NCBI RefSeq assembly: GCF_012927165.1
Contig: NZ_JABBGA010000034.1
Location: 1-39,783 of the forward strand
Source of the DNA: Zoogloea dura
GTDB taxonomy: Bacteria > Pseudomonadota > Gammaproteobacteria > Burkholderiales > Rhodocyclaceae
DNA: 39,783 nucleotides
Direction: 5' to 3'
Within the stretch, counting starts at the first letter, position 1. Each line of letters starts with the position of its first letter. A program made the translations under genes and the position numbers. The notes beneath the pieces are model-generated. The model saw nothing but the letters and a program-made list of their open reading frames with translations. It ran no database searches and was not told the origin of the DNA. Shown piece by piece: positions 268 through 36,837 of this stretch.

Positions 268-473
268 GGTCAGCGGGCCTTTCTCAGGGGTGGGGGCGTG
301 AGTGGCAACGCGCACCTCAACGACCGGAGCACGCGCACCGACCCCACGGAAAAACCACCCTCCGTCAGAAAGCCTGCGTCTTTGTCTCCTGCCGCCGGGC
401 ACTCATGCGTTGCCTCGATTCGTCAGAAACATCATGCACAAAATAAACACAAAAGGCAAATGTGTTTATATAT
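268..473 (-). promoter_or_regulatory. Intergenic leader and promoter region of the amidohydrolase
   Basis: This 206-base gap between the TetR stop and the amidohydrolase start contains no credible gene. Its distal end is AT-rich and holds the palindrome at 444-468. On the minus strand a plausible sigma-70 pair, TTGCCT then 17 bases then CATGAT, overlaps that palindrome, so a regulator bound there could block or position polymerase. The rest (268-440) would be a long 5' leader. I see no obvious riboswitch or terminator fold in it. The promoter call is inference. Confidence 0.4.
444..468. promoter_or_regulatory. Operator copy 1, TAAACA-N13-TGTTTA
   Basis: A perfect inverted repeat: ATAAACAC and GTGTTTAT with an 11-base centre (core TAAACA-N13-TGTTTA, 25 bp). 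The same core with the same 13-base spacing recurs at 1937-1961 and 36788-36812, each time upstream of a minus-strand catabolic gene. It sits just past the TetR gene and upstream of the amidohydrolase at 1-267. The TetR protein encoded next to it is the likely ligand, by position. Confidence 0.7.
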
Positions 474-1115
474 CTAACTAAATTCATTGCTCATGAAGCC
501 AAGCCGCCGGGACACCAGTCCAAGAATCAAGCTTTCGATACGCGAGGAACGCTCACGCTGTGTCGGCCCCCTCGGGGCCAACTGCTCACTGAGCACGTAA
601 CGGATCATCATCTCGCACACCAGCTCCCGATCAATGCGGATACCCAAGCGGGCATCCCAGGCATCGAAGACGATCGCCAGTACGTCCTGCAGGCGCAGCA
701 CCGAGTCGTGGAAGATGCGCTGAAAAAAACCAAGCGCGTACTCTGGCGCCACCTTGAGAAGACGACGGGCCTGCCCACTTTCCAGGTAGGCCTCCAGATA
801 CGCCACCACCGCCCGAAAACGGCTATCGGGATCTTCCGTCACTTGGGCAGCCACGAGCAGCGCCGAATGGAAGTTATCCCGCTTATGGCAGGAAAAGGCA
901 TCAAGCAGATCACCCTGGGACGAAAAGTAGCGATAGAAGGTGCCACGGGACACCTCAGCCTTCTCGCACACTTCAAGAATCGAGACACGGTCGGAACCTG
1001 AGCGAAGGATGATGTCCTCCGTCGCTGCCAGGATCGTTGCTATCGTTTCCTCCGAACGCCGGTTACGGCGTCCTGCCCCATCCCCCACGCCTTTACGGCC
1101 GGCAATAGCCCCCAT
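474..1115 (-). CDS. TetR/AcrR-family transcriptional regulator
   Basis: A 213-residue one-component repressor. An N-terminal helix-turn-helix of TetR type spans about residues 20-66 (EVCEKAEVSRGTFYRYFSS is the recognition region), followed by a divergent all-helical ligand-binding domain, as usual for the family and of usual length. The start is the ATG at 1113-1115, one base after the TGA of the upstream SDR gene (TGA-A-ATG). The two are therefore translationally coupled and transcribed from the SDR promoter. A palindromic operator covers that promoter (1937-1961), and identical cores occur at 444-468 and 36788-36812. Autoregulation and control of both amidohydrolase genes are inferred. The ligand, perhaps a pathway acyl-CoA or terpenoid acid, cannot be read from sequence. 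Confidence 0.9.
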   Translation of the reverse strand: MGAIAGRKGVGDGAGRRNRRSEETIATILAATEDIILRSGSDRVSILEVCEKAEVSRGTFYRYFSSQGDLLDAFSCHKRDNFHSALLVAAQVTEDPDSRFRAVVAYLEAYLESGQARRLLKVAPEYALGFFQRIFHDSVLRLQDVLAIVFDAWDARLGIRIDRELVCEMMIRYVLSEQLAPRGPTQRERSSRIESLILGLVSRRLGFMSNEFS

Positions 1116-1116
1116 T

Positions 1117-1917
1117 TCAGTACTCGCGCACCGGTACGTCACGAGGGCGCGAGTTGTAGCCAGGAAGGTGCAGGCCACCATCAACGTGAATCGCCTCCCC
1201 AGTCATGTAGCAGGACAGCTCACTGGCCAGGAAGAGCACTGCAGGGGCAATATCGGCCTCTGGATCACCACTGCGACCCAGCGGACGTAAAGCCGCCGAA
1301 GCTTCAGCAAAGCCCGGATTCTCGGCTGCGAGCTTGTGAAAGGTCGCACCCATTGCCGTGGGGGCAATGGCATTGACGGTAATGTTGAAGCGCCCCCATT
1401 CAGCTGCAGCGCTGCGTGTCAGGCCGAGGATGCCGGCCTTGGCGGTGTTGTAGTCGGCATGCAGCCAAGCACCGGTATCCACATCGATAGAGTAGAAATT
1501 GACGACTTTGCCACCGCCCCGCAACTTCATGTGTGGAAGTGCCGCCTGCATCGCCCACCAAGATGCCCATACCGTGGACTTCAGCGTCCGCTCGAGCATC
1601 TCATCGGTCTTGTCTTCCATGCGCACGTTGGGCGACGGCACAAAGGCGTTGTTCACAAGAATGTCGAGGCCACCAAAGTGGCTGGCCGCCGCATTCACGG
1701 CGGCCACAACGCTTTCCTTCGAGGTCACGTCAGTGCGCACGAACAGTGCCCTGCCGCCCAACTCCTCCAGTTCGCAGACAACCTGCTCGCCGCTGGCCAC
1801 ATCAATCTCCGCGACAACCACCGCCGCACCTTCGCGGGCAAAACGTCGCGCCACGCCCTTGCCAATGCCGCCACCAGCGCCGGTAATCAGGGCAATCTTG
1901 CCTTCAAGTAGTCCCAT
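1117..1917 (-). CDS. Short-chain dehydrogenase/reductase (SDR)
   Basis: A classical SDR of 266 residues that interconverts an alcohol and a ketone with NAD(P)(H) in the cytoplasm. TGAGGGIG (residues 12-19) binds the cofactor, LVNNA marks strand 4, and Ser143, Tyr156 and Lys160 (YNTAK) form the catalytic set. The C-terminal GEAIHVDGG is typical. The ATG at 1915-1917 follows a near-perfect AAGGAGGGGG site; the frame is open further upstream but lacks a ribosome site. It is the first gene of an SDR-TetR pair, and its promoter region carries the shared 25-bp operator. In a terpenoid pathway it could oxidise a ring hydroxyl or act on a 3-hydroxyacyl-CoA. The exact step is unknown. Confidence 0.9.
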   Translation of the reverse strand: MGLLEGKIALITGAGGGIGKGVARRFAREGAAVVVAEIDVASGEQVVCELEELGGRALFVRTDVTSKESVVAAVNAAASHFGGLDILVNNAFVPSPNVRMEDKTDEMLERTLKSTVWASWWAMQAALPHMKLRGGGKVVNFYSIDVDTGAWLHADYNTAKAGILGLTRSAAAEWGRFNITVNAIAPTAMGATFHKLAAENPGFAEASAALRPLGRSGDPEADIAPAVLFLASELSCYMTGEAIHVDGGLHLPGYNSRPRDVPVREY

Positions 1918-2842: not shown

Positions 2843-2860
2843 CCCAAAGTCAGCCGGGCC

Positions 2861-3193
2861 TTACTGCGCCAGCACCCAGCGCACCAGAACCCGCGCTTCG
2901 TCTTCGCTGACGGCCACGCGGGCCCCCGGCGACGGCATCTTCTTGGTTCCCCAGTGGAAGCCGCCCGCATCCGGCGAACCCTTCACAACCGTCTTGACCA
3001 GCATATCCTCGGCCTGAGCCTTGCCCTTGTACTTTTTGGCCACGCTCTTGAAGGCCGGCCCGACCACTTCCTTGTCGAGGGCATGACAGCTCATGCATTC
3101 CCTGGCCTTGGCCAGGTCGGCCCCCTCGTCGGCACGGGCTGACCCCGAGGCCATTACCAGTCCGGCAAATACGCCGATCCACAGCTTTTTCAT
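2861..3193 (-). CDS. Periplasmic monohaem cytochrome c (class I, c8-like)
   Basis: A 110-residue protein with a cleavable signal peptide (MKKLWIGVFAGLVMASGSARA). The single haem-binding CMSCH motif is at residues 33-37, and a likely axial Met86 lies in KKMPSPGA. It resembles c551/c552 soluble electron carriers, which move electrons between periplasmic or membrane donors and oxidases or reductases. The ATG at 3191-3193 fits the signal peptide; upstream in-frame codons lack one. It is the last gene of the minus-strand oxygenase operon, 107 bases after the ferredoxin reductase. That is odd, because ring hydroxylation is cytoplasmic. A role with a periplasmic dehydrogenase or respiration during growth on the substrate is possible. 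Confidence 0.88.
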   Translation of the reverse strand: MKKLWIGVFAGLVMASGSARADEGADLAKARECMSCHALDKEVVGPAFKSVAKKYKGKAQAEDMLVKTVVKGSPDAGGFHWGTKKMPSPGARVAVSEDEARVLVRWVLAQ

Positions 3194-3300
3194 CGTCTCC
3201 GCTCCTATTTTGTTGTCCCGAAATACAGCGTGCCGGGCCAGGCCCGACACGCCCGCTCCGAAAGCCGGCAGGCTTCTGGATTCTTTGCACAGCGCCAGGA

Positions 3301-4536
3301 TCAGTCCCGGTTGGCGGCTTCCCACACTTTCAGCTCAAAGCCGGGGGCCGCAGCCTCCGCCGGCGTCAGGCGGGGAGGACGAGCCAGGATCTTGCGTGCC
3401 GCCATGTGATCGCCGGGTCGGTTGCAGGACTCCACGGCCACCAGTTGGTCCTGACGAAAGCACAGCACGGACAACTGATTGCTCTCCGGAGCACCGAGCA
3501 TCACGGTGCTGTCACAGCCATTCGACAAGCCGGCGATCTGCAGCTTGAGCGTCCCCTGATCCGTCCAGAACCACGGCAGCGCGGTATAGGGCGCCGGCTT
3601 GCCGACAAGACGGGCCGCAATCGCTCGGCCTTGGTCCACCGCGTTCTGCACCGACTCCAGGCGCAGGAGCTTCTGATCGTTGTGGATGCACGGAAAGGCC
3701 GCCACATCACCCAGCGAAGAAATGTGCGGATCGCTGGTTAGCAGCGTGCTGTCGACGGTGATCCCGTTGTCGATGTCGAGACCGGCCTCGAGGGCCAGCT
3801 GGAGGTTGGGAATCACGCCAATCCCATACACAACCAAGTCGGCCAGCAGGCGCTTGCCCTCAACGGTTTCCACGCCGCAGACCTTGCCGCCCTCGGTGAG
3901 GATGTGGCCGATACCCTGGCGGAAATCGAAATGCACGCCCCAGCCCTCGTGGGCGCAGCGGAACAGCTCCGACATTTCCCGCGACACGGCACGCGCCATC
4001 GGCCGGTCGCCCAGCTCCAGCACATGCACGGTCGCGCCATTGGCGGCGGCCACTGCGGCGAACTCCAGGCCGACAAAACCAGCCCCCACCACCACCACGT
4101 TGCGGGCCTCCTTGACCAGCGGCGCCAAGGCGTCGGCGTCGGCCTTGGTCTTGATGCCGAAGACACCCTGCGCTTCGGCACCCGGCACCGCCAGCGGCCG
4201 GTTATGAGCCCCCATGGCCAGCACCAGGTGGTCGTAATCCACGCTGCGCCCGGAGGCCAGGCGCACCTGGCGGTTGTTACGGTCCACCGCCACGGCCTGG
4301 TCGTGCACCAGCTCAATGTTCTGCTGGGTGTAGAAATCCTCCGGCCGGAACAGCAGCGCCGTGGCGCTGATCTTGCCGAGCAGGTAGGCCTTAGAAAGGG
4401 GCGGCCGCTGGTAGGGCAGGCCGGGTTCGTCGCCAATCAGGGTGATGTTGCCCTGATAGCCCTCCTGACGCAGGGAAGCGGCGACCTGGAAGCCGCCCTG
4501 CCCCGCACCGACGATCACAACCGAGTTGAGCGCCAT
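3301..4536 (-). CDS. FAD-dependent ferredoxin reductase (putidaredoxin-reductase type)
   Basis: A 411-residue flavoprotein that passes electrons from NAD(P)H to a ferredoxin in Rieske oxygenase or class I P450 systems. VIVGAGQGG near the N-terminus binds FAD, and YQRPPLSKAYL is characteristic of rhodocoxin, putidaredoxin and BphA4-like reductases. A second Rossmann motif (VVVVGAGFVGLEFA, near residue 150) binds NAD(P)H, and SLGDVAAFP is the second FAD motif. Full length for the family. It lies just downstream of a [2Fe-2S] ferredoxin gene (39 bases) in the oxygenase operon. It probably feeds the Rieske dioxygenase encoded upstream, the window's P450, or both. Confidence 0.92.
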   Translation of the reverse strand: MALNSVVIVGAGQGGFQVAASLRQEGYQGNITLIGDEPGLPYQRPPLSKAYLLGKISATALLFRPEDFYTQQNIELVHDQAVAVDRNNRQVRLASGRSVDYDHLVLAMGAHNRPLAVPGAEAQGVFGIKTKADADALAPLVKEARNVVVVGAGFVGLEFAAVAAANGATVHVLELGDRPMARAVSREMSELFRCAHEGWGVHFDFRQGIGHILTEGGKVCGVETVEGKRLLADLVVYGIGVIPNLQLALEAGLDIDNGITVDSTLLTSDPHISSLGDVAAFPCIHNDQKLLRLESVQNAVDQGRAIAARLVGKPAPYTALPWFWTDQGTLKLQIAGLSNGCDSTVMLGAPESNQLSVLCFRQDQLVAVESCNRPGDHMAARKILARPPRLTPAEAAAPGFELKVWEAANRD

Positions 4537-4575
4537 GGTGTCTGTCTCCGATATTTTTATGGATGCGCGGCTGGC

Positions 4576-4896
4576 TCAGTACTGGGAGGCCGGCAGGCGG
4601 ATCAGCAAGCCGTCCATGCCTTCGGCAATCACCAGCTGACAGCTCAGACGACTGTTGGCGCGACGCTCGGTGACGTTGTCGAGCATGTCCACCTCGGTAC
4701 CTTCTGCGGGCGGAAAGCGTTCCACCCAGGCCTCATCCACATAGGCGTGGCAGGTGGCGCAGCTGCAGGCACCACCACAGTCGCCCTGGATGCCGGGCAG
4801 CATGGCGAAGGTGGCAGCCTGCATGACGGACTGGCCGACTTCGCCGTGTACTTCGTGGGTTGTGCCGCTGTGTTCGATGAAAGTAAGGGTTGGCAT
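4576..4896 (-). CDS. [2Fe-2S] ferredoxin, adrenodoxin/putidaredoxin type
   Basis: A 106-residue cytoplasmic electron carrier. Cys40, Cys46, Cys49 and Cys86 form the C-x5-C-x2-C-x36-C cluster-binding pattern of vertebrate-type ferredoxins (motif DCGGACSCATC). The ATG at 4894-4896 is chosen because the conserved fold starts immediately (MPTLTFIEHSG); the open frame upstream is unlike the family. It is directly followed by its likely reductase partner and preceded by the MFS permease. Ferredoxins of this class serve bacterial P450s and some Rieske oxygenases. The window also encodes a [3Fe-4S]-type ferredoxin (13826-14062), so which carrier serves which oxygenase is open. Confidence 0.92.
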   Translation of the reverse strand: MPTLTFIEHSGTTHEVHGEVGQSVMQAATFAMLPGIQGDCGGACSCATCHAYVDEAWVERFPPAEGTEVDMLDNVTERRANSRLSCQLVIAEGMDGLLIRLPASQY

Positions 4897-4927
4897 GGTT
4901 TCGACTCCGATAAAAGTAGGCGGGTGC

Positions 4928-6208
4928 TCAAGAGCGGCCGGCAAGCGCAACCACCCCGCCAAACCCGGGGTCACGTCCCAGGGTAAGCAGAAGCGCCGGT
5001 CCGACGAGGGAACACACGAAGCAGTAGCTCAGCATCGCGGTGTAGGAAGCGGTGTAACTGAACAGCGCGGCAAACAGCAGCGGCGCCAGGGCCGAGGCCA
5101 CGGTGTTGAGGCCCTGATGCACACCAAACAGGCGGCCGTATTCGCGCAGGCCGAAATAGCGAGCGATCAGGAAGGCGGCAATGTCGAACTCGGCCCCTGC
5201 CCCAAAACCAACCAGCACGGCCGCCAGGCCAAGCAGCGGCAGATCGTTGCTGCCATTCATGTAGATCAGGCAGCCCAGCGCCGGCAGAAACAGGCTCACT
5301 GCAGCAACGCCCGGTGGCCACATGCGATCGAGCAGATAGCCCACCACCACGCGGCCGAAGATCAGCGAAACGCCGAAGCCGCCAAAGATCAGGCTCGCGT
5401 CGGCGCCCGACAAGCCCCTGTCGCGCAGCATCGGAATGGTGTTGGTAACCATCCCGACGATGGCCGAGATCACCAGTGCCAGCGCCACGTTACAGATCCA
5501 GAAACGCCGCGACACCAGCCCTTCGCGCAGGGACATGCCCTCCAGCCACACATGCGGCGCCACCTTGCCGTCATCGGCGGCACGGGCCGGCGCATCGTCG
5601 ATGGGCAAGCGGAACCAGATCAGCACCAGGGGCAGCAGCAGGCCAAGATTGAGCACCGCAAGGATCACGAAGGCTGCCCGCCAGTCCCAGCGCTCAATGC
5701 CCCAGGCCATCAGACGCGGCACGACGGCCGCGGTGATGCCGGTGCCCGACAGGCCGATGGCCAGCGCCAGCCCCCGATTGCGCACGAACCATAGGTTGAG
5801 CAGCTGGGTCCAGGTCACCGCCAGCGAGCCCATGCCGATGATCGGCAGCAGCGCAAAGGCAAGGTAGAGCGACCACACCGATCCACTGATCAGCGTCGTG
5901 GCCAGGTAGCCAAGGGCAATCAGCAGCAGTGACGCCACCACCACCCGACGCATGCCGAAGCGCAGGTTGATCCAGCCGACCACCTGCAGGGACAGCACGG
6001 CCCCCCCGAACAGAAAAGTCACCGCCACCTGCAGTTCGCTGCGGCTCCAGCCGAAGGCCTGCTGGAGGGGAATCACCAGCGTGCCGAAACCATAAAGGAG
6101 CGCCGCGTTGATGCTGATGGCGACGCCGACGATGGACAGGACCAGCACCCGCCAGCTGTGTTTGAACTCGGTGAAATCGATGCTCGCCAAGCCGATGGGA
6201 GAACCCAT
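4928..6208 (-). CDS. MFS permease (possible substrate uptake, DitE-like by position)
   Basis: A 426-residue inner-membrane transporter of the major facilitator superfamily with about 12 hydrophobic segments. The loop following an early helix pair (INLRFGMRRVVVASLL) resembles the MFS signature, and a central cytoplasmic loop (PIDDAPARAADDG) separates the two halves. It looks like the oxalate/formate-antiporter or monocarboxylate branch often used for organic acids. The ATG at 6206-6208 has GGAGG about 9 bases upstream. It lies between the Rieske oxygenase genes and the electron-transfer genes, suggesting uptake of the pathway acid. In the known dit cluster a permease gene, ditE, is linked to the dioxygenase. 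Orthology is not shown. Confidence 0.85.
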   Translation of the reverse strand: MGSPIGLASIDFTEFKHSWRVLVLSIVGVAISINAALLYGFGTLVIPLQQAFGWSRSELQVAVTFLFGGAVLSLQVVGWINLRFGMRRVVVASLLLIALGYLATTLISGSVWSLYLAFALLPIIGMGSLAVTWTQLLNLWFVRNRGLALAIGLSGTGITAAVVPRLMAWGIERWDWRAAFVILAVLNLGLLLPLVLIWFRLPIDDAPARAADDGKVAPHVWLEGMSLREGLVSRRFWICNVALALVISAIVGMVTNTIPMLRDRGLSGADASLIFGGFGVSLIFGRVVVGYLLDRMWPPGVAAVSLFLPALGCLIYMNGSNDLPLLGLAAVLVGFGAGAEFDIAAFLIARYFGLREYGRLFGVHQGLNTVASALAPLLFAALFSYTASYTAMLSYCFVCSLVGPALLLTLGRDPGFGGVVALAGRS

Positions 6209-6292
6209 GGACCATGCCCTCCACAAGAATTTGGATGGACAGCCCCTGTCACCGACCATCAGGCCGTGACAAGGGTGTTCCCGCTGTGCTGC

Positions 6293-6856
6293 TTAAAGGA
6301 AGATCGCCAGATTGGGCGTACCGAGCACGGCCTGGTCGAGGATTACCTCGCGGCGTGCCAGCTTCAGTTGGCCGTCCACCAGGCGCAGCACGTCGTTCCG
6401 CTCGCCGCTGATCAGGTCGAGATCGGGGCTGTCGAAGCGGCTGCGGGTCAGCAGTAGGTAACTCACCACGGCCAGCTCGCCTTCCACACCGGTGGTGCTT
6501 ACCTGCACGTTGGTCACCAGCCGGCGGGTACGTGACGGGGGATCTTCGGCCCAGGCGCTCTTGGTTTCGGTGAGGCGCATGATCCGGCCCATGATCGAGC
6601 GGTAGTCATCATGGTAGTGCTGGACCGTGCGGATGATGGAGGCCGCATGCTGGGCCATCGGCCGGGTCTGGCGCAGGGGCACGGTGTAGATCAGTTCCGG
6701 GCTAAGCAGCGCGCTCCACTCCTTGAGCCTGATGGCGTCGAGGAGGCTGGCCTCCCGGTACAGAAAGCCGAGAACCTGGTTATAGGTATCGGAACCGATG
6801 GGCACGCACTCGCCCTGGGCGAGGTCGGCGGTGGGCAGGGCTTGGGTTGCAGTCAT
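6293..6856 (-). CDS. ditA2: Aromatic-ring-hydroxylating dioxygenase, beta subunit
   Basis: A 187-residue small subunit with the SnoaL/NTF2-like fold of BphE/NdoC-type proteins. It carries no metal; it forms the alpha3beta3 hexamer with the Rieske alpha subunit and stabilises it. Family features include FLYREASLLDAIRLKEW near residue 30, the Y-T-V-P-L strand, and a C-terminal DGQLKLARREVILDQA. The ATG follows AAGGAG by 7 bases. It is 36 bases downstream of the alpha subunit gene. The symbol rests on the cluster's resemblance to the abietane diterpenoid dit cluster, where DitA1A2 hydroxylates 7-oxodehydroabietate. The family call is firm; the substrate is inferred. Confidence 0.88.
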   Translation of the reverse strand: MTATQALPTADLAQGECVPIGSDTYNQVLGFLYREASLLDAIRLKEWSALLSPELIYTVPLRQTRPMAQHAASIIRTVQHYHDDYRSIMGRIMRLTETKSAWAEDPPSRTRRLVTNVQVSTTGVEGELAVVSYLLLTRSRFDSPDLDLISGERNDVLRLVDGQLKLARREVILDQAVLGTPNLAIFL

Positions 6857-6892
6857 GAATTCGCTCCTTGTAGATGGACGTAGGCCAGGGGG

Positions 6893-8284
6893 TCAGGCGT
6901 TGGCGAGCATCAGCTCGTGCCAGTGCAGCCACCAGTGCCACTGGGTGTCATCCTTGGTGAAGCCTTCATTGACAATGCCCGGACCCGGCCAGCCTTCCGG
7001 CGCTCCGGTGGCATAGACGGCCTGGTACTTGAGCGTGGATTTGCGGCCGCGGGCACCCTTGGCGGCAGTGGTCATGTGCGGCCAGGTGTCGGAGTCGTCC
7101 TGCTCGACCATCCCGGAGGTACCGAAGAGCTGGATGCTCTGGCGCAGCATCTTTTCCTTCAGCTCCTGCGGGGTGTCCTTCTCGGCCAGCACCCAATTAA
7201 CGAACTCCAGCTGGTCCGGCCCCTTGGGCACATAGGCGTGCAGCAGGGTCAGGCCAAGCACCGTGCCGTCGGACTGGGGAATGTACACAAAGGCAAACAG
7301 CACGTTGGGGAAGATGCCGCCCACCTGCGGCGGCATCGAGACCAGCACCTTCAACTGGTCTTCGCTCAGCTTGCGCTTCAGCTGGGGCACCATCTCGCGA
7401 GTCACACCCGGCGGCGGCAGGGCGTCCAGCTTCTGGTCAACGCTCAGCACATCCGGATCGAGGCCGGTCAGTTTGCGGATCTTGCGGCCCAGGTCGATGC
7501 AGCGCAGTGCGTGGCCGTGGGGTGAGCTGACTTCGACACCGATCATCTCGGGGCTCAGGTCGGCACCACCCTCCTGGCCGCTCTTGGCGTAGTTGCCCAC
7601 TTCACCGAGCCAGCGGTGCAGGGTCAGGGTGTGGAAACCATCGGCGGCGGACTGTTCGCCAGCAGTCTTCCAGTTGGCCCGGACGACGAAGCGCTGCGGC
7701 GGTCCAAGCACCTCAAGGCCCTTGTCGGAGCGCTGAAAAAGAATATCGAAATACCACTTGGCGTCACCGAGGAAGTCCTCGAACGACTCGCCCTCGTGAT
7801 CCCAGGTAGCGAAGATGAGGCCGCCGTAGAGGGTCACCCGGGCCTGTTCCAGGCTGAGTTCGGCCTTGCTCATCATCGTGCCGTGCATGCATTCCTTCTC
7901 CACCGGGGAGGCTAGGAAGTCACCGTTGGGACGGAAGGCCCAGCCGTGGTAGATGCACTTGTGGATCGGTGTATTACCCGCATCCACAGTGGAAATCTTC
8001 ATGCCCCGATGCGGGCACACGTTAAGGGAAACACTGATCTGGTCATTCTTGCCGCGAGCCACGATCACCGAATCCGACCCCATGTCACGCACGATGAAAT
8101 CGTTCTCGGCGGGGATTTCGGTTTCATGGCCAAGGAGCAGCCAGCTATGCCCGAAGACCCGCTGCATTTCCAGGTCGTAGATCTCATGGTCCGACAGGGC
8201 CCGCATCTGCACTTCGCGGGTGTCGACCTTGATCAGATCCTCGATTTTCGTGCCGTCGGACAGCACATTCCTTGTGGATGTCAA
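6893..8284 (-). CDS. ditA1: Rieske non-haem iron dioxygenase, alpha subunit
   Basis: The catalytic subunit (463 residues) of a ring-hydroxylating dioxygenase that makes a cis-dihydrodiol from an aromatic ring using O2 and ferredoxin electrons. The Rieske [2Fe-2S] ligands are Cys90-x-His92 and Cys110-x2-His113. The mononuclear iron site is His218 and His223 (DGFHTLTLH, bridging Asp215) plus a later aspartate in EQDDSDTW (about 396-397). The start is a TTG at 8282-8284, chosen because AAAGGAGAG lies at the right distance and no nearby in-frame ATG exists; a GTG six codons on is the alternative. The gene follows an FAH-family gene and precedes the beta subunit. The ditA1 name is by context: IclR, separate ferredoxin, extradiol enzyme and permease. 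Confidence 0.9.
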   Translation of the reverse strand: MTSTRNVLSDGTKIEDLIKVDTREVQMRALSDHEIYDLEMQRVFGHSWLLLGHETEIPAENDFIVRDMGSDSVIVARGKNDQISVSLNVCPHRGMKISTVDAGNTPIHKCIYHGWAFRPNGDFLASPVEKECMHGTMMSKAELSLEQARVTLYGGLIFATWDHEGESFEDFLGDAKWYFDILFQRSDKGLEVLGPPQRFVVRANWKTAGEQSAADGFHTLTLHRWLGEVGNYAKSGQEGGADLSPEMIGVEVSSPHGHALRCIDLGRKIRKLTGLDPDVLSVDQKLDALPPPGVTREMVPQLKRKLSEDQLKVLVSMPPQVGGIFPNVLFAFVYIPQSDGTVLGLTLLHAYVPKGPDQLEFVNWVLAEKDTPQELKEKMLRQSIQLFGTSGMVEQDDSDTWPHMTTAAKGARGRKSTLKYQAVYATGAPEGWPGPGIVNEGFTKDDTQWHWWLHWHELMLANA

Positions 8285-8353
8285 AGCTCTCTCCTTTGGG
8301 TTTGCTCGCTCGGGGAGCGAATGGGTTTATTGTTTTTTTGGCAGGTACTGCGC

Positions 8354-9346
8354 TTACGCCACAGGCTTCGTCATGCGGGTACGCAATAGGCCGATGCCGT
8401 CGATTTCCAGCTCGATCACGTCGTCGGGCTTGAGGAAGCGCAGTTGTTCTAGGCCACACCCGTTGCCCACCGTGCCCGAGCCCAGCACTTCGCCCGGGTA
8501 GAGAGTTTCTGAACGGGAGATGTGGGCAATCAGGTCCTCGAACTGCCAGCGCATGTCACGGGTGTTGCCACGGCCCCACTCCTCGCCATTCACGCGGGCG
8601 ATCATGTTCAGGTCGTAGGGGTCACCAATCTCGTCGGCGGTGACCAAGCAAGGCCCCATCACGTTGCCGGTGTCGAAATCCTTGCTCTTGGCGGGTCCGA
8701 GCATGCCGACCATCTCGATGGCCTGGGCATCGCGGGCACTCATGTCGTTGAAGATGGTGTAACCGAGGATGTAATCACGAGCCTTGTCGCGCGGAATGTC
8801 CCTGCCCTTCCTGCCGATGTAGCAGGCCAGCTCCAGCTCGAAGTCCATGGCCTTGCTGTACGACGGCCAGATCACGTCGTCATCGGGGCCGATCACGGCG
8901 AAGCGGTTGCCCTTGTAGTAGATGGGCTGCCGGTTGAAGGTGTCGACAACCCGGTCGTCGGCGCGGGTGTTCATGGCCTTGAACGCGGCTTCCGGGTCCG
9001 GCTCGCGGGCCACGCGCATGCGGCGGGCGGCGGCGAAGCTCTGGCGCAGGTGCAGCTCGAAACAGGAGCAGTCGCGGATCTGCGGCGGTGGCTGGATGGG
9101 GGCACACAGATGCACATCGGCGCGCGCCAGCACGGCACTCGCCGGGGTGCGCTGCACCAGGGCGCGCGCCGCATCGAGGGCGCCCTCCCCGGCTTCCACC
9201 AGCGCCAGCACACTGGTGAATTCCGGCCGGGAACGGCCATGGATGGCTTCGCTGGCGAGCTGCAGGTCGAGCACCAGCTGGTCTTTTTCGAGCAGGGCGC
9301 CGGCACGTTGAAAACCGCCGGCATCACGGTAGGTGACAAGTCTCAT
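8354..9346 (-). CDS. Fumarylacetoacetate hydrolase (FAH)-family enzyme, long form
   Basis: A 330-residue FAH-fold enzyme. The metal ligands are visible as MDFELELACYIG (the E-x-E pair) and IFNDMSARD (the Asp). The N-terminal domain (MRLVTYRDAGGFQRAG) and the KGNRFAVIGPDDDV region are those of the long FAH type rather than the 220-residue decarboxylase type. Family members cleave C-C bonds of beta-diketo acids, or hydrate or decarboxylate meta-cleavage products. In this cluster it may split a ring-fission product. A second FAH gene (15948-16838) directly follows the extradiol dioxygenase, and no alpha/beta-hydrolase of BphD type is present. It is 9 bases downstream of an SDR gene; ribosome site GGAGACCCC. 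Confidence 0.9.
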   Translation of the reverse strand: MRLVTYRDAGGFQRAGALLEKDQLVLDLQLASEAIHGRSRPEFTSVLALVEAGEGALDAARALVQRTPASAVLARADVHLCAPIQPPPQIRDCSCFELHLRQSFAAARRMRVAREPDPEAAFKAMNTRADDRVVDTFNRQPIYYKGNRFAVIGPDDDVIWPSYSKAMDFELELACYIGRKGRDIPRDKARDYILGYTIFNDMSARDAQAIEMVGMLGPAKSKDFDTGNVMGPCLVTADEIGDPYDLNMIARVNGEEWGRGNTRDMRWQFEDLIAHISRSETLYPGEVLGSGTVGNGCGLEQLRFLKPDDVIELEIDGIGLLRTRMTKPVA

Positions 9347-9355
9347 GGGGTCTCC

Positions 9356-10054
9356 TCAGACGCGGCCACAGACCGGAATCAATGCGCCGGTGACCGCCGA
9401 GGCGTCATCCGACAGCAGGAAGGCGATCACAGCCGCCAGCGCAGCGGCGCTGACCCAACGGGTGGCATCGGCATCGGGCATGTCGGCACGGTTGGTGGGC
9501 GTGTCGATGATGCTCGGCAGCACCGCATTGACGGTGACACCCTTGTCCTTGAGTTCTTCGGCAAGAGCTTCGGTGAGCCGCGCCACACCGGCCTTGGAAG
9601 CCGCATAGGCGCCCATGCCGGTGGCGGCCTTGCTGGCCGCCAGGGCGCCGACATTCACCAGGCGACCCGCACCCTTGGCCAGCAGATGCGGCAACACGGC
9701 CTGGGACGCCACCACCGCGGTGCGCAGGTTCATGCTGTACATGCGATCCCAGGATTCGATGCTGCCGGCCTCGACGGTTTCCCACACAAAGCCACCGGCC
9801 ACGTTAACCAGCGCATCAATGCCTCCGAGCTCCCCGGCGATACGGGAAAAGGCGGCGCCAGCCGACTCGGGGCTGCCCAGATCCACGCCGCCGAGGGCCA
9901 GGGCCACATCCGGCAAGGCCTGTGCCGGAACGGCGGAGCGGTCTACGAGGACGACGCGGGCACCCTCCTTCACCAGCTTCGCCGCCAGCGCACCGCCAAG
10001 GAAGCCGAAGCCTCCGGTAACAACGACAGTGCGGCCTGTGAGCGTTTGAGTCAT
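9356..10054 (-). CDS. Short-chain dehydrogenase/reductase, first gene of the oxygenase operon
   Basis: A 232-residue SDR. Cofactor motif TGGFGFLG (residues 13-20), a modified NVAGG in place of NNAG, and Tyr150-x3-Lys154 (YAASK). The usual active-site serine strand reads VNVGALAA, so the canonical Ser position is Ala or Gly, which may alter catalysis. The ATG at 10052-10054 has AAGGATC upstream; the longer open frame lies in the regulatory region and is rejected. It is the promoter-proximal gene of the minus-strand operon running to 2861 and diverges from the DUF35 gene across a large inverted repeat. It could be a dihydrodiol or hydroxy-terpenoid dehydrogenase, comparable to ditG or ditI by context only. 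Confidence 0.85.
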   Translation of the reverse strand: MTQTLTGRTVVVTGGFGFLGGALAAKLVKEGARVVLVDRSAVPAQALPDVALALGGVDLGSPESAGAAFSRIAGELGGIDALVNVAGGFVWETVEAGSIESWDRMYSMNLRTAVVASQAVLPHLLAKGAGRLVNVGALAASKAATGMGAYAASKAGVARLTEALAEELKDKGVTVNAVLPSIIDTPTNRADMPDADATRWVSAAALAAVIAFLLSDDASAVTGALIPVCGRV

Positions 10055-10130
10055 GGTCGATCCTTGATGTGGCGTTGCAGGGGAAACGGTCCGAAACATC
10101 TTTTGAGAGCGGACCTGACGTGAAAACTTT

Positions 10131-10194
10131 AGACAGATTTTTGTTATCTGTCTATATGTGGATGCTAGAATTAAATTCCGAAGACAGATAACAA
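10131..10194. promoter_or_regulatory. Divergent operator with three AGACAGAT half-sites
   Basis: TTGTTATCTGTCT (10141-10153) is the exact reverse complement of AGACAGATAACAA (10182-10194), giving a 13-bp perfect inverted repeat with a 28-base centre. A third half-site, AGACAGAT at 10131-10138, pairs with ATCTGTCT at 10146-10153 across 7 bases. A TAGAAT element (10166-10171) in the centre is a likely -10 box for the plus-strand gene. The block lies between the minus operon (SDR to cytochrome c) and the plus operon (DUF35 to Cache protein), so one regulator could control both. Which regulator is unknown. Confidence 0.7.
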
Positions 10195-10214
10195 CGCCCC
10201 GGAGACCAAGGACC

Positions 10215-10613
10215 ATGGCCCGCAAACTCCCCGCACTGAACCCTGACAACTCGGCCTTCTGGCAGGGTGGCGCAGAGGGCACGCTGAACATGCACCACTG
10301 TCAGGGCTGCCAGCGCTACTTCCACCCGCCGGCACCGATCTGCCCGCGCTGCCTGAGCCAGGACGTGGGGCCGCGCCCGGTGAGCGGCCGCGGCAAGGTG
10401 CTCAGTTACACCATCAACCACCAGCGCTGGAACGCCGACGTCGAGATGCCCTATGTAGTGGCCATCATCGAGCTGGCCGACCAGCCGGGCCTGCGTCTGG
10501 TCAGCAACATCGTCGGCATGCCGGTGGATGAGGTGCACATCGACATGCCCGTGCGGGTCACCTTCAGCCAGGTCGAGGATGTCTGGCTGCCATTTTTTGA
10601 GAGGGAGGCATGA
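10215..10613 (+). CDS. DUF35 / Zn-ribbon OB-fold acyl-CoA-associated protein
   Basis: A 132-residue DUF35 protein. The rubredoxin-like zinc ribbon uses Cys29, Cys32, Cys43 and Cys46 (HCQGCQRYFHPPAPICPRC) and is followed by an OB-fold that in known cases binds acyl-CoA. DUF35 proteins partner thiolase-like proteins. In steroid side-chain degradation the Ltp2/ChsH2-DUF35 complex forms a retro-aldolase. The ATG at 10215 follows GGAGACCAAGG. The stop overlaps the start of the next gene (ATGA at 10610-10613), so the DUF35 and thiolase-like proteins are almost certainly coupled and form a complex. This is the first gene of the plus operon leaving the divergent promoter. Confidence 0.88.
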   Translation: MARKLPALNPDNSAFWQGGAEGTLNMHHCQGCQRYFHPPAPICPRCLSQDVGPRPVSGRGKVLSYTINHQRWNADVEMPYVVAIIELADQPGLRLVSNIVGMPVDEVHIDMPVRVTFSQVEDVWLPFFEREA

Positions 10614-20861: not shown

Positions 20862-20862
20862 T

Positions 20863-27240: not shown

Positions 27241-27271
27241 GCGCTGTCTCCTGTTACTCGTTTTATTTGAA

Positions 27272-27330
27272 CAAATACTACAAAACTGTATTGTTATCGT
27301 AAAATCACAAATACTGAGTTCTGGTATTTG
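27272..27330. promoter_or_regulatory. Two LysR-type operator copies between the oxidoreductase and LysR genes
   Basis: CAAATAC-N9-GTATTGT (27272-27294) and CAAATAC-N9-GTATTTG (27308-27330) are two near-identical dyads 36 bases apart in a 98-base AT-rich divergent promoter region. The second ends 9 bases before the LysR start, so it probably mediates autoregulation. The first lies toward the oxidoreductase gene. Tandem dyads are how LysR tetramers usually bind. Assignment to the neighbouring LysR protein is inferred. Confidence 0.7.
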
Positions 27331-31170: not shown

Positions 31171-32295
31171 TTAAAGGCTGCGACCGATGATTTCTTTCAT
31201 GATCTCGGAGGTGCCGCCATAGATGCGCGCCACCCGGGCATCCACCCAGGCCCGGCTGATCTTGTATTCGCTCATGAAACCGTAGCCGCCGTGCAACTGC
31301 AGGAACTCGTCGAGGAGCTTGCCCTGCATCTCGGAACCCACCAGCTTGGCCATCGCAGCCACGTCCGCCGACAACTCGCCGGCCAGGGCCTGGGCCAGGC
31401 AGTGATCAACGAACACGCGCAGCATGGTGGCCTGGGCCTTGGCGTCGGCCAGCTTGAAACGGGTGTTCTGGTAGTCGAGAATCGCCTTGCCGAAAGCCTT
31501 GCGCTCGCGGGTATAGGCGATGGTTTCTTCAAGCAGGGTGTCGATCGACTGAGCCGAGCGGATGGCGATTATCAGGCGTTCCCAGGCGAGTTGATGGAAG
31601 AGGTAATTGAAACCCTCGTTCTCCTCGGCCAGGCGGTTGCTCACCGGCACCCGCACCTCGTCGAAGAACAGCTCGGCGGTGTCCTGACCCTTGAGGCCAA
31701 CCTTCTCCAGCAGGCGGCCCTTCGAGAAACCCGGCCGGTCGACTTCGACGCAGATCAGCGTAAGGTTCTTGCTGGCAGGGTCGAGCTTGACCGCTGCCAC
31801 CACCAGGTCGGCGTTGCCGCCGTTGGTGATGAAGGTCTTCTGGCCATTGATGACGTATTCGTCGCCCTCGCGGCGGGCTGTGGTGCGCATGGAGCGCAGG
31901 TCACTGCCCGCGCCAGGCTCGCTCATGGCGATCACGCCAATGGTTTCGCCGCTGACCATGCCAGGCAGCCACTTCTGCTTCTGTTCCTCAGAACCGTAGG
32001 CCACCAGGTAATTTGCGACGATCTCCGAGTGGGTGGTGAAGCCCACCGCCGTCCCATTGACCCGGGCCAGCTCCTCGATCATCACCGCCGAATGGCCGTA
32101 GTCGCCACCGGCACCACCGTATTCCTCCGGTACACAGGAGCACAGCAACCCGGCCGCGCCGGCCTTCAACCAGACGTCCCGGGGCACGATGCCGGCCTTC
32201 TCCCAGTCGTGCAGATGGGGCACGATTTCCCGGTCGATGAAGCGGCGCGCCATGTCGCGGAACATCTCGTGGTCTTCACGGAAAACGGTTCGCAT
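31171..32295 (-). CDS. Acyl-CoA dehydrogenase (long-chain/isovaleryl-like)
   Basis: A 374-residue FAD enzyme that introduces a 2,3-double bond in an acyl-CoA and passes electrons to ETF. Signatures are [15 protein letters not shown] and the C-terminal [16 protein letters not shown] and [17 protein letters not shown]. The EGT glutamate of medium-chain enzymes is Gly here. A glutamate in LAWERLIIA matches the alternative catalytic position of long-chain and isovaleryl-CoA dehydrogenases. It is the last gene of the minus operon from the amidohydrolase at 36705. Ribosome site GGAGGAG. Substrate chain not determinable. Confidence 0.94.
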
Positions 32296-32329
32296 TGTTT
32301 CTCCTCCAGATTCGATTTTTTATGCCGGC

Positions 32330-33130
32330 TCAGCGGCCGGTGAACTGCGGTGCACGCTTTTCCACGAAGGCATTCACTGCCTCCTGGTGGTCTTCCGTGT
32401 GGTGGGCCAGCGACTGGAAAGCAGCCGACAGTTCGAGCAGGGAGTCGAGGCGCATGTGCTGGCCCTCACGCAGCAGGCGCTTGGTCAGGCGCAGGCCGTG
32501 GGACGGGTTGGCAGCCATGCGGCGAGCCACGTCCAGCGCAGCACTCAGCAGTTCGGCAGCCGGCACCACTTCAGTCACCAGCCCCCACTCGAGGGCCTTG
32601 GCGGCGTCGATGGTGTCGCCGGTCAGGGCCATCAGGCTGGCCTTGGGCATGCCGACGATACGCGGCAGCAGCCAGGCGCCACCGTCACCAGGAACGATGC
32701 CGAGCTTGACGAAGCTCTCGGCGAACTTCGCCGTATCGGCGGATATGCGCACGTCGCACATGCAGGCCAGATCAAGACCGGCGCCGATCGCCGGACCGTT
32801 GATCGCAGCCACCACCGGCACATCCAGCTCATAGAGGGCCAGCGGAATGCGCTGGATGCCGTTGCGGTAGCTTTCACGCAGTTCGTAGGGCGAGCCGGCG
32901 AAGATGCCGCCGCGCTCACGCATGTCCTTGACATTGCCGCCAGCACAGAAGGCGGGGCCATTGCCGGTGAGCACCACGACCTTGACCGAACGGTCGGCCT
33001 TGACGCTTGCGCACAGGTCCACGAACTCCTGCATCTGAGCCGGTTCAGACAGGGCGTTGCGGGTCTCGGGGCTGTCCATGCGTACGGTGAGGATGGAATC
33101 CTCCCGCTCGGCGATCAGAAAGGGCTTCAT
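32330..33130 (-). CDS. Enoyl-CoA hydratase/isomerase family protein
   Basis: A 266-residue crotonase-fold enzyme. The oxyanion-hole segments are FCAGGNVKDM (about residues 60-70) and the INGPAIGAGLDLACMCD stretch (about 107-122). LVTEVVPAAELLSAALDVARRMA is the C-terminal trimerisation region. FVKLGIVPGDGGAWLLPRIVG carries Gly where the second catalytic Glu of hydratases sits in many members, so isomerase or another crotonase chemistry is possible. The ATG overlaps the stop of the upstream dehydrogenase gene (ATGA at 33127-33130). With the flanking dehydrogenases it forms a beta-oxidation module. Confidence 0.9.
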   Translation of the reverse strand: MKPFLIAEREDSILTVRMDSPETRNALSEPAQMQEFVDLCASVKADRSVKVVVLTGNGPAFCAGGNVKDMRERGGIFAGSPYELRESYRNGIQRIPLALYELDVPVVAAINGPAIGAGLDLACMCDVRISADTAKFAESFVKLGIVPGDGGAWLLPRIVGMPKASLMALTGDTIDAAKALEWGLVTEVVPAAELLSAALDVARRMAANPSHGLRLTKRLLREGQHMRLDSLLELSAAFQSLAHHTEDHQEAVNAFVEKRAPQFTGR

Positions 33131-34185
33131 GCGTGGGCTCCTGCCGAGGTTTCAAGTTGGCCAGCGACGAGGCTTGGCCAAAAGGCCGCTGCGCCGCCCT
33201 GGCACAGGGCCCGGCCAAGTTCGCCCGACCAGTAGGTAAGGGTTCCGAACTCGCTGCGCCAGCTCCATAGCCGGCGTGTGCCCAGATGCAGCGCGTGTTC
33301 GTGGGTGAAGCCAATGGCTCCGTGCACGCCGTGGGCCACCGAAGCGCCAATCCCGGCGGCCTCGGAAGCACACACCTTGGCGGCCGTCACCGGCAGGCGG
33401 GCCAGGGTCTCGGCGGATTCGGCGAAGGCTGCTTCAGCGCCCATCACCGACGCCGCGGTGTGCTCCGAGAGCACCGCGATCTGGTGCTGGATGGCCTGAA
33501 AACTGCCAATCGCCTTGCCAAACTGGACCCGCTCGTTGGCGTAGGTGATGGTCATCTCAAGCATGCCCTGCAGGGCACCGGCGATCTGCGCCGAGCGCAG
33601 CATGGCGCCGCCCAGAAGCAGCACGTCGGTGGGCACACCTGCCGGTAAGGGCACGGCCAGCAAGGGCACGGCAGATTCATAAACGAACTCGTCCCGCGCT
33701 TCGCCAGCCGTATTGCTGCGCAGCGTGCAGGCGCTGGCCCCTTCGACGGGCAACAGCACCAGCGTCGGCACCTCGCCGGCAGCAATCGCCACCAGTGCGG
33801 GCACGTTACGTCCCCACGGCACATCGACGGCGACGCCGCTGACCTTGCCAGCAGCCAGCTTCAACGAGCCGCGGGCGGCAAACGACAGCGGCCCGGCCTG
33901 GGCCGGTTGCCCACAGACGCCAAGCAGCCAGTTGGCCAGCAGGGTTTCGGGCAGCGGCAATGGCAGCGCATAGCGGCCGCACAGGCGCACCACACCACAC
34001 AGGTCGGCCCAGCTGGCGCCGGCACCGCCCAGGGCTTCGGGCACTGCAGCCAGGCCGAAGCCGGACTCCTCCAGCGCTGCCCACAGCTCGGCAGGCCAGT
34101 GGCCCGTGTCGGCAGCCCGCACCGCATCGGGGGTAACCAGGTCGGCGAAGAGTCGCTCGACGGTCGAATCGAAGATTTCCCGCAT
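33127..34185 (-). CDS. Acyl-CoA dehydrogenase-like subunit, divergent (beta partner)
   Basis: A 352-residue protein of the acyl-CoA dehydrogenase fold but degenerate. The typical FAD-contacting T-x-x-x-G-S-D segment is replaced by a shortened middle domain (FAARGSLKLAAGKVSGVAVD), and the C-terminus ends without the GGT-x-E-I helix. The mid-helix stretch ITYANERVQFGKAIGSFQAIQHQIA is kept. Short members encoded beside a normal one form alpha2beta2 heterotetramers in steroid and terpenoid catabolism (FadE26-FadE27 type). The gene begins 2 bases after the stop of the full-length dehydrogenase (TGA-TC-ATG), consistent with a complex. Ribosome site within the upstream gene's end. Confidence 0.88.
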   Translation of the reverse strand: MREIFDSTVERLFADLVTPDAVRAADTGHWPAELWAALEESGFGLAAVPEALGGAGASWADLCGVVRLCGRYALPLPLPETLLANWLLGVCGQPAQAGPLSFAARGSLKLAAGKVSGVAVDVPWGRNVPALVAIAAGEVPTLVLLPVEGASACTLRSNTAGEARDEFVYESAVPLLAVPLPAGVPTDVLLLGGAMLRSAQIAGALQGMLEMTITYANERVQFGKAIGSFQAIQHQIAVLSEHTAASVMGAEAAFAESAETLARLPVTAAKVCASEAAGIGASVAHGVHGAIGFTHEHALHLGTRRLWSWRSEFGTLTYWSGELGRALCQGGAAAFWPSLVAGQLETSAGAHA

Positions 34186-34187
34186 GA

Positions 34188-35333
34188 TCAACGCAAGCCC
34201 AATCCGCGCGCGATGATGCCGCGGAGAATTTCCCGCGTACCGCCACGCAATGAAAACGAAGGTGCCATCTGGGTCAGATAGGCCAGTACCTGGGCGTGGT
34301 CGCAACCGCCCTCCGCCGTCGGCGGGATGTCGCACAGCAGCTGTGCCAGCTCGGGGATTTCCTGCTCGAAAACAGCCCCGAGATCCTTCACGCAGGACGC
34401 CGCCCACGCCGGGTTCTCGCCGGCGGCCAGCTGGGCCGTCACCGACAGGGACATGTTGCGCAGGGTGACGAGGCGCGCCGCCAGGCGGCCGATTTCCTTG
34501 GCCTGCAGGGCATCGGGATCGCGGCCTACGGCGTCGATCAATGTGTGGATCAATGCAATGGAACTGAGGAAGCGTTCCGGGCCGCTGCGCTCGAATGCCA
34601 GCTCGGCGGTCACCTGCGACCAGCCCTGCCCTTCGGTACCGATCAGGGCATCGGCGTCCAGCACCACCTCGTCGAGGAAGACCTCATTGAAGTGTTCGCT
34701 GCCGGTCAAATCCTTGATCGGGCGGATGGTGATGCCGGGCAGGGACAAATCGATGATGAACTGGGACAGGCCTTCCTGCCGCTTGCTGTTCTCGCCGGTG
34801 CGCACCAACGCGATCATGTAATGGGAGCGGTGGGCGTTGGTGGTCCACACTTTTTGGCCGTTTACCACCCACTTGTCACCCTCACGGCGGGCGCGGGTCT
34901 TGATGGAGGCCAGATCGGAGCCGGAATTGGGCTCGCTCATACCGATGCAGAAGTATTGCTCGCCGCGGCAGATGGCCGGCAGGTGGCGGTCTTTCTGGGC
35001 GTCGGTGCCGTAGTGAAGGATCTGCGGGCCGCTCTGGCGGTCGGCAAACCAGTGGGCCGATACGGGCGCACCGGCAGCCAGCAGTTCCTCGATCACCACG
35101 TAGCGGGCGAAGGGGCTGGCGTCGGAGCCACCATAGCGCTTCGGCAGGGCCATGCCGACCCAGCCGCGGGCACCCAGGCGACGACTGAATTCGGCATCGA
35201 AACCCATCCACGAATCGGCCCGACGAATGGCTGGATAGTCCTTCAGCGTGTCGGCAAGAAAGGCGCGCACCTCGCTGCGGAGCGCTTCCGCTTCCGGCGG
35301 GATACGACTGTATTTGAACTGGTCGATAGACAT
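34188..35333 (-). CDS. Acyl-CoA dehydrogenase, main (alpha) subunit of a likely heteromeric pair
   Basis: A 381-residue acyl-CoA dehydrogenase. FAD and substrate motifs FCIGMSEPNSGSDLASIKTRA (about residue 130) and VVNGQKVWTTNAH are canonical, and the C-terminus has LRGGTREILRGIIARGLGLR. A glutamate in LAFERSGPERFL is a candidate catalytic base, since the R-G-G-T position lacks Glu. It is coupled to the divergent partner directly downstream. In actinobacterial steroid degraders such pairs act on bulky polycyclic acyl-CoAs, which would suit a ring-containing terpenoid intermediate. The start ATG (35331-35333) has only a weak ribosome site. Confidence 0.93.
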   Translation of the reverse strand: MSIDQFKYSRIPPEAEALRSEVRAFLADTLKDYPAIRRADSWMGFDAEFSRRLGARGWVGMALPKRYGGSDASPFARYVVIEELLAAGAPVSAHWFADRQSGPQILHYGTDAQKDRHLPAICRGEQYFCIGMSEPNSGSDLASIKTRARREGDKWVVNGQKVWTTNAHRSHYMIALVRTGENSKRQEGLSQFIIDLSLPGITIRPIKDLTGSEHFNEVFLDEVVLDADALIGTEGQGWSQVTAELAFERSGPERFLSSIALIHTLIDAVGRDPDALQAKEIGRLAARLVTLRNMSLSVTAQLAAGENPAWAASCVKDLGAVFEQEIPELAQLLCDIPPTAEGGCDHAQVLAYLTQMAPSFSLRGGTREILRGIIARGLGLR

Positions 35334-35397
35334 GAGCGTTCTTCAGTGAGGATTGACGCGCCAGCCGGAGACTGTCCTCCGGTTGGCGTCGGCCTGC

Positions 35398-36705
35398 TTA
35401 CAGCGCGGTCTGGGCGTCGGCGGCGGCGAACATCTTGTTGATGTCGCCGGATGTCACCGGCTTGTTGGGGTCACGCTCGGGTGCGGCACCGCCCAGGCCC
35501 AGGGCCGGTTCAATGCTGACGTGGCCAGCCTGGGCACGCAGGGCGCCGACCGTGCAGTTCTCGCGTCCCAGAATGGCGAAGGGGTCGTAGGAAAACTCGC
35601 GCATGGCGTTGAGGTGGGAGATCTTGTTGATGATCTCGTCCGGCAGATGCTGGGCCTGCTTCCAGAACACGTTGGCCGACTCGGGCCAGGTGCAGTCGGA
35701 ATGCGGGTAGTCGCATTCCCAGGTGACCATATCCACGTTGATGGCGTCCAGGTTCTTCAGGCCGAAGGCATCCTCGATGAAGCAGGTGATGATGTGCTCG
35801 TTGAAGATGTCGCTGGGCTTCTTGCCGCCGAAGTTGGAGTTGGTCCACGCCTTGTGGTGGTTGTGGGTGAAGTCCGCGCGCTCCAGCAGGTAGGGAATCC
35901 AGCCGATGCCACCTTCCGACAGGGCCATGCGCAGCTTCGGGTACTTCTTCCACATCGGCGCCCAGATCCAGTCAGCGGCCGAATTGGAGATGGAGATCGG
36001 CATGGAGGTGATCCACGCATCGATCGGCGATTCATCCGAGGCGTGAGCCGCCTTGACGCCAGTGCCGATGTGGCAGCAGATCACCACGTTGTTGTCGGCA
36101 CAGGCCTTCCACAGCGGGTCCCAGTGGTCGTTGTGGATGGACGGGTAGCCATGCACGGTGGGGTTGTCGGAAAGCGTCAGGGCATGCACACCCTGGGCTG
36201 CCAGCCGCTTCACTTCGGCAGCGGCGGCCTGCATGTCCCACCATGGCACCATCATCAGCGGGATGAAGCGGCCGGGGGCGGCATTGCACCAATCGTGCAG
36301 ATGCCAGTCGTTGTAGGCCTGGATGGCAGCCAGACTGACGGCCTTGTCGGGCATGACCTGAAAGCGCTGGCCGGCAAAACCCGGGAAAGTCGGGAAACAC
36401 AGGGAGCCGAGCACACCGTTGGCGTTCATGTCTTCGACGCGGGCCTTGATGTCCCAGGTGCCACGGCGCATCTGCTCGTAGGAGAGCGGCTCCATGCCGT
36501 ATTCCTCCTTCGGGCGGCCAACCACCGAATTGAGGCCCATGTAGCCGGTGGCCTGCTCTTCAAACACCCAGATGTCACGTCCCCCCAGCTGCTCCACCTT
36601 CGGCTGACGACCCTTGAATTTGGCCGGCATGTGGCGATCGAAGGCGCCGCGCGGCTCAATGGCGTGGTCGTCGACGCTAACGAGAATCAGATCTTCCAGT
36701 TTCAT
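35398..36705 (-). CDS. Amidohydrolase-2 family metal-dependent hydrolase
   Basis: A 435-residue TIM-barrel enzyme of the PF04909 family (ACMSD/LigW-like). The N-terminal VSVDDHAIEP carries the metal-binding D-x-H variant. Later metal ligands lie in VICCHIGTGV (strand with His, about residue 200) and WECDYPHSDCTWPES (Asp, about 328). Members decarboxylate or hydrolyse aromatic and polycyclic acids; close relatives are common in steroid and terpenoid catabolic clusters. It starts an operon with the heteromeric dehydrogenase pair, and its upstream gap carries the 25-bp operator shared with the TetR region. Ribosome site GAGGGG. Confidence 0.9.
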   Translation of the reverse strand: MKLEDLILVSVDDHAIEPRGAFDRHMPAKFKGRQPKVEQLGGRDIWVFEEQATGYMGLNSVVGRPKEEYGMEPLSYEQMRRGTWDIKARVEDMNANGVLGSLCFPTFPGFAGQRFQVMPDKAVSLAAIQAYNDWHLHDWCNAAPGRFIPLMMVPWWDMQAAAAEVKRLAAQGVHALTLSDNPTVHGYPSIHNDHWDPLWKACADNNVVICCHIGTGVKAAHASDESPIDAWITSMPISISNSAADWIWAPMWKKYPKLRMALSEGGIGWIPYLLERADFTHNHHKAWTNSNFGGKKPSDIFNEHIITCFIEDAFGLKNLDAINVDMVTWECDYPHSDCTWPESANVFWKQAQHLPDEIINKISHLNAMREFSYDPFAILGRENCTVGALRAQAGHVSIEPALGLGGAAPERDPNKPVTSGDINKMFAAADAQTAL

Positions 36706-36837
36706 TTGTGTCCCCTCTTGGTGTTGATCCCGCGCCGGGCGTGGATCGATATTGGAGTTTCAGTTTAGTGCAAGGCCGGCTTTTTGTTAAACACTTTTTT
36801 GATTTATGTTTAGTTTAAATGCCAGCCTTTCCATGAA
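36706..36837 (-). promoter_or_regulatory. Promoter region between the P450 and amidohydrolase genes
   Basis: A 132-base AT-rich gap on the minus strand. TTGCAC, 16 bases, TATCGA (downstream of the operator) is a possible promoter for the amidohydrolase operon. AAGGCTGGC and GCCGGCCTT flank the operator as a long imperfect inverted repeat, which could form a stem after the P450 gene. Both are suggestions only. Confidence 0.4.
36788..36812. promoter_or_regulatory. Operator copy 3, TAAACA-N13-TGTTTA
   Basis: A perfect TAAACA / TGTTTA dyad with the same 13-base spacer as the sites at 444-468 and 1937-1961. It ends 83 bases before the amidohydrolase start codon on the minus strand. The distance from the other copies (about 35 kb) argues that one regulator, probably the TetR protein at 474-1115, controls both ends of the cluster. 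Confidence 0.7.

Follow-up and report, generated by a model that had tools for sequence, protein, structure and literature searches.

Mycobacterial cholesterol regulons are governed by KstR and KstR2, described as working independently of one another on 14-bp palindromes (PMC3068626). For the TetR regulators QacR, CgmR and Ms6564, a second source describes binding as a pair of dimers (PMC4486848). The dit genes for abietane diterpenoids form a large cluster that, in two further reports, carries a P450, ring-hydroxylating and ring-cleavage dioxygenases and a sterol-carrier-like protein (PMC13063091, PMC10710418). Here we analysed a stretch of 39,783 nucleotides from Zoogloea dura (the window), which is contig C28 of an 83-contig, 5.83-Mb genome and which carries 25-bp dyads of the form TAAACA-N13-TGTTTA in a catabolic gene cluster. 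We are highly confident in predicting that these dyads are the operators of a TetR-family catabolic regulon, in which TetR1, encoded in the window, and its paralogue TetR2, encoded on contig C8, would repress their own units and other promoters of the cluster. In the open-access papers searched we found no description of a Zoogloea TetR regulon and nothing on the present cluster.

The predicted regulon shares with KstR/KstR2 two TetR-type repressors that are each autoregulated (here a proposal) and a conserved palindrome at the catabolic promoters of one region; unlike there, the palindrome is 25 bp long with its arms 13 bp apart, and both TetR proteins seem to read related sites (PMC3068626). 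TetR1 was not assigned as a KstR orthologue: with the NCBIfam KstR model, whose cut-off is 280, it reached 29.6 bits, and the palindrome here measures 25 bp rather than 14 bp. As with QacR, whose operator is described as wider than the classic TetR site (PMC4486848), the operator here is wide; the second sequence match found for TetR1 in the PDB is an Ms6564 chain (4jl3), aligned across no more than the DNA-binding part. The cluster also resembles dit in its size and in the functions named above, a likeness drawn by description only. The elements on which the prediction is built are listed below by window position.

444–468: predicted operator dyad 1 (TAAACAC-N11-GTGTTTA), directly behind the TetR1 stop codon and about 177 bp before the amidohydrolase-type ATG at 267
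474–1115, minus strand: TetR1, proposed repressor of 213 amino acids, with Pfam TetR_N and a TetR-like predicted fold
1117–1917, minus strand: SDR oxidoreductase, first gene of the TetR1 operon (Pfam adh_short_C2, 3.8e-55)
1937–1961: predicted operator dyad 2, 19 bp before the SDR ATG at 1917 of the SDR–TetR1 operon, with proposed autoregulation
10130–10154: putative variant operator (TAGACAG-N11-CTGTCTA), between the divergent Rieske and OB-fold/thiolase operons
27268–27292: putative weak operator, 27 bp before an indolepyruvate:ferredoxin oxidoreductase (IOR)-like gene
36788–36812: predicted operator dyad 3, 82 bp before the second amidohydrolase ATG at 36705, overlapping a −35-like hexamer

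A pattern search of the window recovered the three dyads named in the original prediction, without mismatch at 444–468 and 36788–36812 and with one mismatch at 1937–1961. Their placement before an amidohydrolase-type gene, the SDR–TetR1 pair and a second amidohydrolase gene had been read correctly; the 'identical 13-base spacer' is common to them in length, not in sequence. Allowing up to two mismatches gave four matches in the window, the fourth at 10130–10154, against a mean of 0.09 in 100 shuffles, none of which reached four. The spacers are AT-rich and the inner operator positions A/T-rich. When spacers of 0–30 were tried, 18 of the 20 matches to a relaxed pattern had a spacer of 13, for a dyad of 25 bp overall. 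A further dyad-like sequence at 19795–19819 (23.5 bits) is flanked by convergent genes and lies next to a GC-rich hairpin, which is not a promoter position; in genome G104 nothing corresponding scored above 12 bits.

Across the whole genome, six places matched with at most one mismatch, three of them in the window, compared with one for the reversed control. Two of the others precede cluster-type genes: position 8991 of contig C31 stands before a run of Rieske, amidohydrolase and FAD oxidoreductase genes, and position 120684 of C8 before another copy of the left amidohydrolase-type gene, with 98% identity across 471 bp. The sixth place (C56:183324) is probably due to chance. The strict form TRAACA-N13-TGTTYA was restricted to five places in 5.83 Mb, namely the window's three and those on C31 and C8, each before cluster genes. 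The motif is thus not common away from promoters, a statement that holds for the strict form only.

We then surveyed the strict motif in 25 genomes, comprising 23 of the genus together with G044 and G067, which were chosen for having TetR1. It was present in all seven genomes with TetR1 and in none of the 18 without, and the reversed pattern occurred at one place in all 25. The 27 strict sites (five each in the present genome (G000), G102 and G104, four in G111, three each in G110 and G067, and two in G044) were all on cluster contigs or inside the cluster interval. At E up to 1e-20, relatives of TetR1 turned up in 3 of the 101 genomes searched in the family and in 6 of the 23 in the genus; an order-wide search of 399 genomes (E up to 1e-40) matched no genome but the window's, and a scan of viral contigs found no relative. 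TetR1 and TetR2 occurred together, alongside the whole cluster, in seven of the nine genomes or plasmids having either.

The positions of the dyads are also conserved. Four records with a 79–91% identical TetR (three labelled Zoogloea and one 'Proteobacteria bacterium') carry dyads at both places around the SDR–TetR operon, with differing spacers; they are the same records as G110, G102, G111 and G104 and not extra witnesses. The dyad 1 position is occupied in L011–L014, G067, G044 and Massilia. The Massilia putida plasmid NZ_CP019037 holds an unbroken cluster with two TetR1 relatives, and a matrix built from 19 distinct strict Zoogloea sites only (threshold at least 15 bits) found 11 dyads in 90 kb of it, each 18–152 bp before a gene start, as measured against a list of 36 starts. 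The reversed matrix gave one match, overlapping a real site, and 20 permuted matrices gave 0–3 (mean 0.55).

Five clusters (G000, G104, G044, G067 and Massilia) were compared by position. The dyad stood 17–19 bp from the SDR start of the TetR1 operon, 24–27 bp from the IOR-gene start and 82–85 bp from the second amidohydrolase start in all five; the IOR-gene dyad scored at least 15 bits in four and 12.9 in G044. A dyad at the place equivalent to 10130 was present in all five as well, the Massilia copy being nearer the strict form, and the C31-type Rieske dyad lay 32–36 bp from the start in all three scanned clusters having that gene. Overall, 51 of 202 upstream regions had a dyad of at least 15 bits, a count that includes training sites and takes divergent promoters from both sides, compared with 0–5 (mean 1.6) for ten permuted matrices. 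In this survey the starts behind the SDR2 and OB-fold distances are approximate, deviating by about 9 and 57 bases, and the TetR1 row mixes TetR1 and TetR2 loci. A conserved dyad thus precedes both the regulator's own unit and pathway genes, its strict form being absent elsewhere. Computation establishes that the sites exist, that their strict form is confined to the cluster, that their positions are conserved and that they are linked to TetR genes.

TetR1 carries an N-terminal helix-turn-helix of the TetR_N family (PF00440; E 4.8e-10, 39.5 bits, cut-off 24). Its structure model is all helical, and the best Foldseek rows were TetR-type regulators with TM of about 0.6. It fell into no named NCBIfam equivalog (best 29.7 bits, cut-off 201.3). 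TetR2 is 59–60% identical to TetR1, and the recognition-helix core RGTFYRYF is kept in 17 of 18 aligned TetR rows, two of which are the same gene; the Caulobacter relative differs. A dyad stands before TetR2 in all eight loci scanned (G000, G044, G067, G101, G104, Massilia, G102 and G111), each time with a TGTCAA arm (TAAACA..TGTCAA). The single TetR regulator of the original prediction therefore proved too modest: a local TetR regulon is supported, as the strict sites follow TetR1 and its operon's site keeps its distance, and it would involve two paralogous TetRs and variant sites also at 10130 and 27268. TetR1 and TetR2 probably share one operator code.

A mechanism can be proposed from these sequence comparisons. 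TetR1 and TetR2 would each repress their own transcription unit by negative autoregulation and, between them, the remaining promoters of one large cluster of P450, Rieske dioxygenase, amidohydrolase, acyl-CoA dehydrogenase and CoA ligase genes. When inducer is absent, TRAACA-N13-TGTTYA, located inside the promoter or next to it, would be occupied by dimers. An intermediate of the pathway, which might be an acyl-CoA or an acid derived from a polycyclic terpenoid- or steroid-like compound, would release these dimers, after which the cluster would come on together, as the whole pathway probably does. Binding, repression, inducer and substrate are all predicted here from sequence. The half-site centres of the dyads are 19 bp apart, which is further than one TetR dimer usually spans, so we propose a pair of dimers per operator as likelier than a single dimer. 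QacR itself controls drug efflux rather than a catabolic cluster, and the 19-bp centre-to-centre spacing alone points to a QacR-like dimer pair here. In the three stretches scanned for promoters, sigma-70-like hexamers overlapped the 36788 and C31 sites, giving a pair at two of four dyads. The predicted system is of an ordinary kind and well supported by comparison, namely a TetR catabolic regulon with two paralogous regulators. We are doubtful of a more elaborate scheme, in which the two paralogues would share a wide operator code over a supercluster of at least about 65 kb, with graded site strength, two related ligands setting an ordered switch-on and a dimer pair on each 25-bp operator; its strict sites would be those before the amidohydrolases, the SDR–TetR1 unit and the C31 Rieske genes, and its weaker variants those before TetR2, at the divergent Rieske/thiolase promoter and before the IOR genes.

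Several observations weigh against the proposed regulon. With at most two mismatches, the plain pattern matched 24 places genome-wide and its reversed control 27, which is noise at that looseness (two of the 24, C8:109859 and C8:111672, flank the TetR2 gene). With one mismatch allowed, matches were found in 14 of 14 genomes searched and control matches in 14 of 14 too, among the matches listed. Because looser matches are equally common in controls or cluster-less genomes, only strict sites or conserved position carry weight. The surveyed genomes are related, so their counts are not independent, and because TetR1, TetR2 and the cluster travel together, co-occurrence does not cleanly name the binder of each site. 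The promoter scan was weak: the three regions yielded 0, 1 and 1 sigma-70-like pairs, where shuffled sequences gave 0.5, 0.1 and 0.3, and no such pair was found at 444 or 1937. The TetR1 model is mediocre (pLDDT 72), and the sites flanking TetR2 (TGTCAA arm) and at 10130 (TAGACAG) are variants, for which separate specificities are possible.

The last point leads to the strongest competitor, in which TetR1 would read the strict palindromes and TetR2 the TAAACA..TGTCAA variants, so that two adjacent regulons with non-overlapping operators lie side by side. We regard this as a serious minority option. It would account for the recurrent TGTCAA arm before TetR2 and for G101, a genome with TetR2 and without TetR1 that has no strict site and keeps two variant dyads beside TetR2; the identical spacer length and the nearly identical recognition-helix core of the two proteins speak for a shared code instead, and the copy of the left amidohydrolase gene on C8, the TetR2 contig, has a strict site. 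G101 also bears on the idea that the link to TetR1 and TetR2 is accidental and that the dyads are bound by the cluster's IclR-type protein or by TetR3, a regulator on C8 beside a P450 gene and unrelated to the other two. IclR does occur in the same 7 of 12 searched genomes as TetR1 (TetR3 in 6 of 12), and the 10130 dyad, with its distinct arms, has the IclR gene in its neighbourhood, so this variant site may belong to IclR. TetR1 and TetR2 are nevertheless favoured as binders, because dyads persist in G101 without an IclR or TetR3 match (E up to 1e-40) and in G110 (89% complete), where TetR1-type dyads are present without a TetR3 match; dyads also precede the TetR1 unit and TetR2 at every cluster and locus compared. 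We therefore judge the IclR or TetR3 alternative unlikely.

We give almost no credence to the view that the dyads are AT-rich palindromes that arose by chance, or stems of terminators. AT-rich spacers and the dyad-like sequence at 19795–19819 are what such a view would draw on; it is contradicted by the shuffled, reversed, permuted (including Massilia) and spacer-length controls and by the conserved distance from start codons. Returning to the two-TetR regulon, a plasmid of Caulobacter sp. FWC26 (p1; L061) was seen to carry a related Rieske gene, a 35%-identical TetR and weaker dyads (17–20 bits). The operator code may extend to Alphaproteobacteria in a diverged form, or the Caulobacter dyads may be chance.

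The remaining genes of the window from which the cluster is made up are listed below.

1–267, minus strand: left amidohydrolase-type gene, N-terminal part, cut by the contig end; no Pfam match was found for this fragment, and its positional counterpart in Massilia carries the annotation 'amidohydrolase family protein'
2850–10057, minus strand: Rieske dioxygenase run (SDR, FAH, Rieske alpha and beta, MFS, reductase and a small CxxCH-motif protein), a putative operon, with synteny
10158–11803, plus strand: OB-fold (ChsH2-like) and thiolase-like pair, divergent from the Rieske genes
12870–13703: IclR-type protein
19929–27240, minus strand: gene run for the IOR-like protein, an AMP-binding enzyme and two ETF subunits, with synteny
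31171–36705, minus strand: amidohydrolase, two acyl-CoA dehydrogenase-type genes, enoyl-CoA hydratase and acyl-CoA dehydrogenase

In the synteny comparison, the CxxCH-protein query had a partial last codon. Taken as a whole, the window's genes include SDRs, FAH-type hydrolases, a BphC-like protein and a P450. We take the ChsH2-type OB-fold and thiolase-like pair to be reminiscent of the retro-aldolases that act in the breakdown of steroid side chains. The gene content would be compatible with a polycyclic terpenoid or steroid-like substrate, as a lead only; a review gives, in a table, a Zoogloea strain as a degrader of dehydroabietic acid (PMC6891630).

Contrary to the original proposal, the three sites do not mark the true extent of the cluster, since sites and cluster genes continue on C8 and C31. 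C28 and C8 share a terminal 471-bp stretch, 98% identical, with an amidohydrolase-type gene (window 1–471); a terminal stretch of 315 bp with 99.4% identity (window 39469–39783) is common to C28 and C31. We rejected the left end of the window as a cluster border, since the contig ends are near-identical repeats and look like assembly breaks; the cluster probably forms a single piece that the assembly has split. The predicted regulation thereby delimits an uncharacterized catabolic supercluster and ties together its pieces on three contigs, and the exact operator could serve in searches for additional members and in screens for an inducing compound, which would point to the substrate.

Genes in the middle of the window had been considered as housekeeping, a view that was dropped once their products were identified. 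Between 28251 and 31138, a hemerythrin-like gene, GTP cyclohydrolase I (folE) and a chemotaxis receptor lie inside the catabolic cluster, and relatives of folE and the hemerythrin gene recur in the G067 and G044 clusters.

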